From Cinnamomum chago (Eukaryota; Streptophyta; Magnoliopsida; Laurales; Lauraceae): a stretch of 64,000 bases of DNA. Below the pieces are notes generated by a model. That model was given only the letters and a program-made list of their open reading frames with translations. It was not told where the DNA came from and ran no database searches. Made by a program: the position numbers and the translations under genes. The stretch lies in NCBI GenBank assembly GCA_038049695.1, contig CP142461.1, positions 30,759,001 through 30,823,000 of the forward strand, in the 5' to 3' direction. This document shows, one piece after another, positions 35,193 through 46,686 of this stretch. Every line of letters begins with the position of its first letter. Positions within the stretch are counted from its first letter, which is position 1.

Positions 35193-35790
35193 CACTACAA
35201 GAAATTGCACTTTTGCCGGCGCTTTAGTCTATAAAACGCCGGTGAACACCTTTGCCGGCGATTTTCCTTGCGCCGGCAATACGCCGGTAAAAGGTCGCCA
35301 GCATTAGCTTTTGCCGGCGAAAAAATGTTAGCGCCGGGAAAAATAATACATTAACGGCGTTTTTATTCGCCGGAAAAAGACGTATAAAACGCCGGGAAAA
35401 GGCCTTTATTTTTCAATAATAAATTGATTTAAAAACTTTTGCCGGCGTTTTTTTGCGCCGGCAAAACATTTATATTTTATGGATTTTTTTTTTTAAATTT
35501 ATTGCCAGCGTTTTTTTTGCGCTGGCAAAACATTTATATTTTATGGAATTTTTTTCAAAATTTATTGCCGGCGTTTTTTTTTGCGCCGGCAAAACATTTA
35601 TATTTTATGAAATTTTTTTCAAAAATTATTGCCGGCGTTTTTTTTGCGCCGGCAAAACATTTATATTTTATGAAAATTAATTTTCCAAAATTATTTGCCG
35701 GCGTATTTTGTCGCCGGGAAAACATTTATTTTTTTTAAGTAATTATTTTGAAGGTGTTTTGCCGGCGAAAATGTTACACCGGCAATCAAT
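35193..35790. repeat. Left subterminal repeats of the CACTA
   Basis: TTGCCGGCG and CGCCGGGAAAA motifs recur every 15-40 bp. From about 35437 to 35760 a 62-66-bp unit (TTGCCGGCGTTTTTTTTGCG, CGGCAAAACATTTATATTTT) is repeated about five times in tandem. The open frames here are translations of the repeat, not genes. Confidence 0.85.
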
Positions 35791-36138
35791 ATTCATTTAT
35801 TGTATTTATTTGATTTTTTAATTTTTTTCCTGTATATGCATCATTACAACTTCGAACCTGTATCGTATGAAACTACTATTCTAGTATCTAAGACCAAATC
35901 TCCTACACACCCAACATCTATCTATTCTAAATATTCATTCCACTTCATATTAATATTCAAATATCCTTACAATATTAAAAGTACTTTACCATTACCATTA
36001 CAAAATAAAAATCCATAGTAACATTCTACTATTTGCCAACATTCAAATGCCAATGAAAAATTATATCTTCATATACAATCATCTCATTGTTGCACCAATC
36101 CAACACCTGCAACATTGTTCAAAAAAACTTCATACATC

Positions 36139-36487
36139 CTATTTTAACATATGGCAATCTGTTATGTTATGCTCTTGAGGTAAGCTCCATGTCAGACCTC
36201 CAAGGTTATAGCTTGTGATAGTTAGAGTATTTTGCTTGCAATTGTCTGGACTCGGAATATTGTTGTTGTTCACACACTTGAGCAGATTGCCATTAGAAGT
36301 GTAGCCATTGGAGGACTCCAGTTCCCCCTTTAGTGCTTTGTCATAATCTGATGGATTCATAACTGAACACATGACATCTGCATAATGAAGTACTGGATAC
36401 TTGGAACTGCCAAACATTGAAGACTCAACTACCAGTTTTTCTTTGATACTCTGAACAGCATGTGCATATTCCAATCCAAATAGAACC
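36139..36487 (-). pseudogene. Captured exon of unknown origin in the CACTA
   Basis: After an acceptor ATGTAG|GTTCTA (36487) the minus frame stays open for over 100 codons: LFGLEYAHAVQSIKEKLVVE, SSMFGSSKYPVLHYADVMCS, VMNPSDYDKALKGELESS, then an Asn-rich part and a stop. Balanced composition and length suggest real coding ancestry. I do not recognise the family. It is the left-most coding-like block of the element, so it could be the last exon of any leftward transcript. Confidence 0.4.
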
Positions 36488-37207
36488 TACATTTCGGAAA
36501 GAAGAAAATGATTATAAAAGATTAAAGAATATCATACCACCCAATAGAATTACATTTTTCAGATGATTGCTAAATTAGAATGAACAACTTTATAAGGAAG
36601 ATTCTCTAACTACAGCCAGCAGCATTCAGACCCATAACTTCTTCCTATCAGCAATTCAGACTAAAAAATGTCTCACTAAAAAAAGTAAACAATACCCAAT
36701 TCAATGCAATAGCCTGATTGAACAAGCTGCAAGTCACAAGTGCCGGTTTGTCTTGGTCTCCAAACACAGCAACAGAAACAGAACCATGTCTAGTCTGTAT
36801 AACATGTTCCTGATGACACTTACATGAACAGTTCAGAAGAAAGACACAAACTACAAGTAGTCATAGAGCAGATGCATGATTCTGTCAGGCATTACTCTCA
36901 TACAAAAGAATAACAAAGGCTTCTCCAAGTTCAAAAACTAAAAAATTGTTCTGTCTTCTTGATGACCACATCCATCATTACAATTTCAAAAAGAAAACCA
37001 AAACCCATATCCATTAGCTTCATGATAAATACAGAATCATAAAAGCAAAGGGAAAAAAAACCATTGTCCTTAGAATCCTAAAAGGACAAAACCCAATGCT
37101 ACTCAAGGAATAACAATCACTACAAAAATGGCAAGGGCAACTACCCATCTCAATTTGTAAGAAAAACTTAGAGAGAGAGATAGAGATGTCCAATAAGAAT
37201 AATATAC

Positions 37208-37970
37208 CTAAAGCATCAAGTTTCTCTCGCTTCCCTGCTACCACATCTTTTAGTTGGCACCTTTCAAGGCTCTGCAAAAAATTGTAGTCAGCAAAATCAT
37301 ATAAAGAAATATCATACAAGCCTCATTTTTTACACAGACATCAAGAGTAGCCAATGGTTTCCAAATTATCCTTGCTTGTTAAATGAAGCCATATACAGTA
37401 CTAGCACTGAGAACTTCTACAGTTTGCTTGGGTTCTCAGTTTGGTGGTTACCACATGCTTGAGTTACAGTGGACACTTCCAAGACCCAACATGGACTTAC
37501 CAATGCAGAGTGCATAAGATTAATGGAAAATCATCCTTCCAAGCAGCCATGTCCACCCAACATGGAGCTTACAGTCATGATATTCAAATGACAAAGTCCA
37601 CTTCTTACTATGTTTTGTAGCATAAACCTGAAATAAAGTAACTGAAGACAAGCCAAGTATATCCTTGTAGATACCTGGTTTAACTATGTTGCTCGGTAAC
37701 TAGATCATGAACAAAGTGGAAAGGCAAAGGATGAAGCTCCCAATCAGCTCTAAACAGAAACCCAACCATTCGTTGGACCCGTTGTTGTGGAAATCCATGC
37801 GTAAATTTGCATTAACCCTGTCTATATTCTCTTGACAAAACCTTGCTTGATTCCTAAAGCACCGGATTGTCATGACGCCAGAGACACTCTCTGAGAAGTG
37901 ATGGATAACAGGAGCTTTTGTGATCGAGTCAAGTCGAGTTAGCTCACGCGAGGAAGAAAGATAATATCCC
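37208..37970 (-). pseudogene. ABCC-type (MRP) transporter fragment, two exons, captured in the CACTA
   Basis: Exon 37970-37675 (acceptor TGCAG, donor CCAG|GTATC) reads [56 protein letters not shown] and [16 protein letters not shown], then an in-frame TAG, then LPSNIVKP. This is the second transmembrane domain of plant ABCC transporters. Exon 37271-37208 reads SLERCQLKDVVAGKREKLDA, a piece of the second nucleotide-binding domain. The exons between them in a real gene, carrying the Walker A motif, are missing; the 400 bp between hold no coding match. With the stop and the missing exons it cannot make a transporter. Confidence 0.8.
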
Positions 37971-44766: not shown

Positions 44767-45420
44767 TCATAGACTTTCCCCTTCAGCTTGGAAGGCCTTG
44801 GCGGTTGTGTACAAATTCCTCTTCACCAGATAATCATAAATGTACACATCCAGCCTGTTTTTTAACAAATCCAATACAAACTTCTAAGTAAGAACAGATA
44901 AAGTCAGAACAAAAATGCACTAACGTCTGCAAGGAAACGGGATAGTTCAAAAGAAGAAAAAATTAAGACAGAGAGCATACAAATGAAGTTACCAAAGTAA
45001 ACCTAAATGAAGCACACCAGAAAAGGAACATGAGAACAATAGAAGAAGAAAATGCCCAAGAACCCAAATATGAATGATAGGAAAAGGAACAATATCAAAG
45101 AAAACAAATACAAGGAAACCCAACAAACAAAAACTGCTAAAAATCAAAACCCTAGAAACACCCATACGAGAAACCCACCTCAAAAAACAGTAAAAACAAC
45201 AATATTAGCAGGGGAAACAAGAACAGCCAAGTGATTGAATGGAACCCAGCAAGAAAACCCAGTAAAAATCACCAAGCAAATCCCAACACCAGCAGTCAAA
45301 AATCGAATCTTTACCCCCAAAAACATAAGCAACAGGAGAAAACAAGAAGACCCAGATTAAAAAAAGAGGAAAGATGGAGAAACCATACATCTTATCGGCT
45401 TCCCAGTTCGTCTGAGACAT
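44767..45420 (-). pseudogene. LEUNIG/LEUNIG_HOMOLOG exons 1-2 captured in the CACTA
   Basis: Exon 1 (45420-45389) codes [10 protein letters not shown] plus AT; donor AT|GTATGG. Exon 2 starts at 44854 after AACAG. Joining restores ATG CTG GAT and gives [20 protein letters not shown] then [17 protein letters not shown]. This is the start of the LisH domain at the N-terminus of LEUNIG-type Groucho/Tup1 co-repressors. An extra G (GGGG where GGG is expected) then shifts the frame to a stop at 44767. In the shifted frame the sequence runs on as GKVYESVPCSVCFSADHLTA KCPF, a CCHC zinc-knuckle pattern. The WD40 part is absent. It lies at the right end of the element with its own ATG, so it could start a chimeric leftward transcript. 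Confidence 0.85.
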
Positions 45421-45888
45421 GATTCCCAATCAAAAACCAACATACCTGCGAATCATCATGAAGGCGAGATGAAGGAAAAGAAGAAGAAAGGGTGGGAAGT
45501 GCTGCCAATGCAGGGAAGAAAGAAACGAGATAGATGAGGATGAGGAGATGAACGAAAAGATGGGAAATGGTGACAATGCAGTGGTGATGGATGGCCGGAG
45601 CGTAATCGGCGAGTCGAGAGACAATGCAGTGGTGAATGGTGATGGTGTGCTTGAGAAAAAAAAAAAGGAAAAAGAGAGCAGAGGGCGGGAGGCAAAGAGG
45701 GGAGAGGGCGGGAGAAGAATAGAGGGGCGCCGGAGAGGAAAAGGGCGTTTTTTTTTTTGATGAAAACAACCACGAACGGTAACTGTGGTTTATAAAAATA
45801 CAAGTGTCTAAAAATACCACAGCCCAAATCAGTGGTCTTGCCTCCCTTGGTTGTGTCGTTTTTAGCCACTTTTGACGTAGTGAGGGAG

Positions 45889-46190
45889 GGAGATACAGAG
45901 AGATGGGGAGATGGGCGCTGGAAGAGGCGAGATGGGCCAGGGACCGAGAAGGAGGAAGATGCAGAGAGATGGGGAGATGGGCGCTGGAAGAGGCGAGATT
46001 GGCTAGGGACCGAAGGGGAGGGAGATGCAGAGAGATGAGGGAGATGGAATAGGCGAGATGGGACAGGGACCGAGAGGGAGGGAGATGCAGAGAGATGAGG
46101 GAAATGGGCGCTGCGAGATTGGCTGGACGAGGCGAGATGCAGAGAGAGGAGGGAGATGCAGAACGGGTTTGAAATGAGGGAGGGAGATGC
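45889..46190. repeat. Purine-rich minisatellite, about 66-bp unit
   Basis: Four to five diverged copies of GATGCAGAGAGATGGGGAGA, TGGGCGCTGGAAGAGGCGAG, GGGACCGAGAAGGAGG. The strand asymmetry (G/A on plus) continues down to about 45470. It produces long Ser/Pro/Leu-rich open frames on the minus strand that are not proteins in my view, though the minus strand could serve as a CT-rich promoter or leader for the LEUNIG-started transcript. Confidence 0.75.
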
Positions 46191-46259
46191 AGAACGGCGC
46201 AATATTTGCTTTTTTGTTTTTTGTTTTCTTTGGGTATAAGCAGAGGGATTGTTTTATGA

Positions 46260-46686
46260 TAACAATCCCGGTGCATTATTTGCGCCGGGAAAACTAATTA
46301 CAAAATCCCTCACCCAAATAAACGCGCGATGCCCAAAAGAAGGCGCGAACGGTGGACATTTGCCGGCGAAGTGGGCAGAACGCCGGGAAAAATAAACCTT
46401 TGCCGGCGAAAAAACAAATGTGCCGGCAAAAAACTATACCTATGACTGAAAACGCAATTACCTTTGCCGGCGAAAAAAATTAAAACGCCGGGAAAAAGGA
46501 CCTTTGCCGGCGAAAAAAATAAATCGCCGGAAAAAAGCAGACTTTTGCCGGCGATAATATGACGCCGGAAAAAATCATTTTTTTCCGGGCGAAAAAGCTG
46601 TTTTCGCCGGTAAAAGTTATACTTTTCCCGGCGTTTAATGCTTGCGCCGGGAAAAAACGCCAGTAATAATGCAAATTGTTGTAGTG
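46260..46686. repeat. Right subterminal repeats of the CACTA
   Basis: Repeated TTTGCCGGCGAAAAAA and CGCCGGGAAAA motifs at about 20-40-bp spacing, the counterpart of the left arm, ending TTGTTGTAGTG. Confidence 0.85.

Follow-up and report, generated by a model that had tools for sequence, protein, structure and literature searches.

In a 64,000-nucleotide stretch of Cinnamomum chago DNA (assembly GCA_038049695.1, contig CP142461.1, positions 30,759,001 to 30,823,000, read on the forward strand and numbered from 1; hereafter the window), positions 35193-46686 very probably represent one non-autonomous CACTA element of the En/Spm superfamily, which has lost its transposase and contains DNA of six host genes as well as a relic of an accessory gene of its own. 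An earlier note on this DNA had proposed a Pack-type CACTA element with fragments from four or more unrelated host genes. This number was too low: protein and Pfam searches recognise six, namely DPH2, an NDR-type gene, an ABCC transporter, topoisomerase I, GFS12 and a LisH gene, presumably LEUNIG. One gene name in the note was wrong.

Ends and subterminal arrays

The element spans 11,494 bp, opening with CACTAC at 35193 and closing with GTAGTG at 46686, and is bordered on both sides by GTT, a 3-bp target site duplication with a chance probability of 1 in 64 if taken alone. As is typical of the CACTA superfamily, the terminal inverted repeats begin with CACTA; the right end, reversed, reads CACTACAACAATTTGCA and equals the left end, CACTACAAGAAATTGCA, at 15 of 17 bases. 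Both ends carry direct as well as inverted subterminal repeats, a further feature of the superfamily. On both strands of the window GCCGGCG occurs 17 times, with 12 copies at 35215-35767, 5 copies at 46362-46553 and none elsewhere, so that all copies fall into the first 575 bp or the last 325 bp of the element. In 100 shuffles, a mean of 0.21 and at most 2 copies were obtained.

The sequence CACTACAA is found at positions 35193, 37118 and 57166, and TTGTAGTG at 8527, 17830 and 46679. Only the sites at 35193 and 46679 adjoin the arrays. A single insertion is the best reading of the unit between the two CACTA ends. The duplication, the end repeats and the confinement of the 17 copies to the arms confirm the earlier claim of one 11.5-kb element bounded by CACTA ends, GTT and GCCGGCG arms. 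Alternatively, the two ends could derive from different CACTA insertions, in which case the gene pieces between them, whether host DNA or pseudogenes, would never have moved together. About 3 kb in the middle of the element (39711-42764) are without assignment, which favours this alternative, but the identical GTT outside both ends, the near identity of the ends themselves, the single repeat type shared by both arrays and absent from the rest of the window, and the transposon gene relic lying inside make such an origin highly unlikely.

The second CACTACAA at 37118 lies inside the element without adjoining GCCGGCG and may be a chance occurrence or the trace of a fused end. Adjoining the right array, GA-rich tandem repeats with units of ~66 bp were observed at 45882-46197. 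A 301-codon frame at 45395-46297 on the minus strand overlaps these repeats; it was set aside and searched only within the six-frame scans. The middle of the element contains a 46-bp duplication with 96% identity (41084-41129 and 41930-41974).

Transposase loss and the accessory-gene relic

Six-frame Pfam scans at an expectation value (E) of 1 found no transposase family. Additionally, 150 of the 154 frames of at least 32 residues between 36500 and 45600 were scanned singly; among the 25 of 29 families listed, the sole transposase was Tnp_P_element with an E of 0.11, which is at chance level. As no transposase gene was found, the element is non-autonomous and of the Pack type, in line with the lack of a functional transposase gene in Pack-CACTA elements.

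To judge from the alignments, three exons at 42.8-43.9 kb are what is left of an accessory gene of En/Spm type that runs from right to left. Two of three candidates matched the exon at 42765-42857, covering 83% of the query region; both are Cinnamomum micranthum proteins with PF03004, and one also has PF13963. These families are labelled Transposase Tnp1 and Transposase-asso(ciated) in the match listing, and we take them to be those named Transposase_24 and Transpos_assoc. The same exon aligns to residues 352-381 of protein P0030. When joined, the two leader exons (43794-43873 and 43609-43678) match P0030 residues 11-33 across the splice junction with 91% identity, an E of 4.7e-13 and 48.5 bits. 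Unspliced, the first leader, the second leader and the third exon reach 26.9, 32.0 and 65.9 bits, respectively, whereas the best of 60 shuffled versions of the element scored 26.2 bits. Within the element, nothing convincingly matched the middle of P0030, and the spliced relic had no match in the PDB. Hence, like other members of the CACTA superfamily, the element holds an accessory gene related to CACTA proteins, here reduced to three exons and without a transposase.

The blocks at 43619-43680 and 43793-43872, which had been described as exon-like and without a name, turned out to be the leader exons of this transposase-associated gene rather than host exons, while the third exon was absent from the earlier note. 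One unknown host gene as the source of all three blocks was considered and is ruled out by the matches to transposon proteins.

Pieces of host genes

Between the ends, pieces of host coding genes are found, as is characteristic of Pack-CACTA elements (Table 1). Five of the six host pieces and the relic are on the minus strand, GFS12 is on the plus strand. Both ABCC exons and all three exons of the transposon gene, five in total, are preceded by AG and followed by GT, and the LisH, DPH2, NDR, topoisomerase and GFS12 pieces each have at least one AG/GT border. Alignments to the proteins P0001 and P0031 show that the DPH2 and GFS12 pieces are truncated within coding sequence; presumably, this also applies to the NDR piece. 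Two whole minus-strand frames had no match in the PDB.

Table 1. Features of the element, in order along the window
Feature	Position	Strand	Observations
GTT, left target site duplication copy	35190-35192		Directly outside left end
Left terminal inverted repeat CACTACAAGAAATTGCA	35193-35209	+	15/17 bases equal to reversed right end
Left subterminal array, GCCGGCG-type repeats	35215-35788		12 exact GCCGGCG; direct repeat families of seven and five copies
DPH2 (diphthamide biosynthesis) exon fragment	36157-36486	-	AG border at start; ends inside coding sequence; 110-residue alignment
NDR/NDL-type gene fragment, first family positions	36733-36809	-	Pfam Ndr E 0.00031, 20 bits; profile positions 1-28 of 283
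Probable later ABCC exon	37208-37271	-	AG/GT borders; 6 of 12 residues equal to human ABCC2 chain, by eye
ABCC transporter exon	37675-37969	-	AG/GT borders; in-frame stop near end; Pfam ABC_membrane E 1.8e-9
DNA topoisomerase I exon fragment	38789-38887	-	GT border at end; Pfam Topoisom_I_N E 4.8e-10 and 6.6e-11; PDB E 3.9e-9
GFS12 exon fragment	39010-39234	+	GT border at end; tblastn 94.7% over 75 residues
GFS12, ten further residues after deletion	39270-39299	+	10/10 residues of P0031 1005-1014
GFS12, end of later exon	39539-39595	+	AG border 39547/39548; P0031 1080-1098, 74% over 19 residues, E 2.9e-4
Open continuation of block 39575-39710	39596-39710	+	No Pfam match
Accessory-gene exon (relic)	42765-42857	-	AG/GT borders; Cinnamomum micranthum proteins 88% and 91%; 97% over 30 residues to P0030
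Second leader exon, transposon gene	43609-43678	-	AG/GT borders; spliced with first leader exon matches P0030 11-33
First leader exon, transposon gene	43794-43873	-	AG/GT borders; same alignment across splice junction
LisH second coding exon, to stop codon	44767-44854	-	AG border at start; Pfam LisH 27/27 positions, E 2e-9
LisH first coding exon	45389-45420	-	Start codon at 45420; GT border
Right subterminal array, GCCGG-type repeats	46284-46652		5 exact GCCGGCG; direct repeat families
Right terminal inverted repeat	46670-46686	-	15/17 bases equal to left end
GTT, right target site duplication copy	46687-46689		Directly outside right end

For the DPH2 piece, 28 of 79 candidates matched, every one with PF01866, the best being a transcriptome protein with 93% identity. 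The block at 36139-36487, which previously had no name, is thereby identified; it had no match in the PDB. The NDR piece, absent from the earlier note, gave an E of 0.13 for Pfam Ndr in the whole frame and no match in the PDB. The ABCC and topoisomerase I pieces had both been named before, and the Pfam and PDB matches confirm both names. At an E of 0.01 or below, the ABCC exon at 37675-37969 matched 51 PDB sequences, with ABCC2 as the best (E 1.9e-18). The exon at 37208-37271 had no match in Pfam or PDB; from its sequence it is probably a later exon of the same ABCC gene, with ~170 residues missing between the two exons.

Between the ABCC and topoisomerase pieces, a Myb_DNA-bind_5 match on the plus strand (38433-38591, E 7.2e-5) lies above the cut-off, with ~0.01 such matches expected, and shows no exon borders. 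A match to eIF3g on the minus strand (44664-44822, E 0.0018), directly after the LisH piece and in another frame, is under the cut-off (~0.3 expected in 150 frames), as are DUF7073 (E 0.23) and CAAX_1 (E 0.018). None of these was counted as a donor.

The GFS12 piece was matched by 96 of 121 candidates, with Persea americana as the best (96%) and Magnolia sinica as the next (82%). Its three parts are in the correct order along the element and show inner deletions. The earlier name for this block, a LisH/HEAT protein, is ruled out by these matches, and both the protein search and tblastn assign it to GFS12. A further block at 39575-39710 had been listed as exon-like and without a name; it begins with the last part of a GFS12 exon (39548-39595), while for the remainder, which has no Pfam match, the description stands.

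The two LisH exons encode 11 and 28 residues with a complete LisH domain, and the frame from the start codon stops after 39 codons. We take this piece to be the start of LEUNIG, the name also given in the earlier note; the Pfam match bears out the LisH domain, and no search result names LEUNIG. In the PDB only two chance-level matches to the piece were obtained (E 1.4 and 1.7). As the start codon, a GT-AG intron and the complete domain are kept and the frame closes 39 codons on, the piece, if transcribed from the captured 5' part, could give a transposon-borne LisH microprotein that blocks dimerisation of host LEUNIG-type co-repressors, which we consider very unlikely.

Some details weigh against the assignment of the unit as a whole. 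The best DPH2 match with a species name is Magnolia sinica with 52%, by itself no pointer to Lauraceae. The NDR match is below the curated Pfam cut-off of 23.3 bits, the LEUNIG-type piece gave only chance matches in the PDB, and the first leader exon alone barely exceeds the shuffle maximum. Of the nearest relatives, Persea for the GFS12 piece and Cinnamomum micranthum (Camphora micrantha in current taxonomy), the sole species matched by the relic, both belong to the Lauraceae, which makes a host of this family probable.

Origin, precedents and genomic setting

The ancestor was probably a larger element with a PF03004/PF13963-type accessory gene reading leftward from the present right end, of which three exons are left. 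Its descendant has lost the transposase and acquired DNA from six host genes; the donors would be intact host genes elsewhere, and several capture events would have been needed. Since the exons arrived together with splice borders and adjoining non-coding sequence, uptake occurred via DNA rather than mRNA. For its movement, an autonomous relative may have provided the transposase in trans, with the ends and the GCCGGCG arrays as sites of action. Interrupted gap repair is one route by which such elements take up host DNA and may have operated here; joint mobilisation of neighbouring insertions is the other candidate. The absence of GCCGGCG from the interior and the inner deletions in GFS12 lean slightly towards interrupted gap repair; joint mobilisation is still compatible with the lack of inner copies, because this model expects the inner ends to be lost. 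In published work, joint mobilisation is described as an uptake route (PMC8903248), and Rubin and Levy are cited for a capture mechanism (PMC8978399).

Tgm-Express1 of soybean (PMC1947982) and Pack-CACTA elements of maize (PMC8903248) are direct precedents, and this kind of gene shuffling is well documented. Tgm-Express1 is a 5.7-kb CACTA element with five unrelated gene fragments, which are spliced in many combinations (PMC1947982). Both it and the present element are non-autonomous and combine exonic and intronic DNA from several host genes that are unrelated to one another. Tgm-Express1, however, lies in an F3H intron and its transcripts have been shown, whereas the present element is 11.5 kb long, has six host genes and keeps three transposon-gene exons. 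The Pack-CACTA, or Pack-TYPE, elements of maize are likewise non-autonomous, with CACTA ends and host coding DNA from more than one locus, and some are suspected by the authors to keep small transposase gene fragments; there, in another host lineage, both the sister copies and the donor loci have been demonstrated (PMC8903248). Work on Pack-CACTA in Arabidopsis (Catoni 2019) is treated in PMC8903248 and PMC13317346.

CACTA-mediated capture is also described for wheat chromosome 3B, with 140 events, many of them captures of single genes and some expressed and under selection (PMC4290129). CACTA elements of Chenopodium (PMC8978399) and grapevine (PMC2528002) contain captured gene fragments as well, those of Chenopodium being located upstream of the first open reading frame, like the LisH piece here. 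Those elements either retain transposase domains or contain a smaller number of pieces, whereas here five more host pieces are found downstream of the relic. Among the papers listed in searches restricted to open-licence literature, we recognised none describing the present element. Its probable distinctions are the six host genes, the three retained exons of its own gene and the magnoliid host. If the assignment is correct, a large multi-donor Pack-CACTA from a magnoliid is added to the reports in soybean, maize, rice, wheat, grapevine, Chenopodium and Arabidopsis. The element also exposes a pitfall in annotation: blocks that look like exons and have good splice borders may, in such an element, belong to a gene of the transposon itself, and naming short blocks by eye readily leads to the wrong host family.

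If a neighbouring promoter or the captured 5' part of LEUNIG type drove transcription, the element could in principle be a functional chimeric gene, with the exons spliced together and the product or RNA acting on the donor genes. In favour of this, splice borders are retained, five of the six host pieces share the minus strand, a start codon is kept together with an intact LisH domain, and the pieces of Tgm-Express1 are spliced into chimeric mRNAs (PMC1947982). However, the 39-codon LisH frame, the in-frame stop in the ABCC exon and the opposite strand of GFS12 make a long chimeric protein unlikely, and a functional chimeric gene is very improbable. Most likely, the element is at present a mostly inert passenger, which may be a source of small RNAs for silencing or of aberrant spliced transcripts and would encode no long chimeric protein. 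By analogy, chimeric RNAs as in Tgm-Express1 are possible, as are small RNAs.

The element sits between ordinary genes: upstream of it are pieces of an ALE2-like receptor kinase (ALE2_N and kinase domains; 25101-32173), and beyond its right end is an exon of a universal stress protein (49687-50052), both on the plus strand. We take its flanks to resemble a Copia-type long terminal repeat on the minus strand; self-comparison of the window gave no second copy of this sequence. Farther along, a gene for a pectin methylesterase/invertase inhibitor is located at 59423-59971 on the plus strand, and a full-length match to the U2 spliceosomal RNA at 62029-62224 on the minus strand (171 bits, model positions 1-192 of 192), which may be a gene or a pseudogene. 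Two inverted repeat pairs, 8682-8846 with 9355-9523 (87% over 169 bp) and 56913-56965 with 58545-58597 (96% over 53 bp), are perhaps the ends of other small DNA elements.

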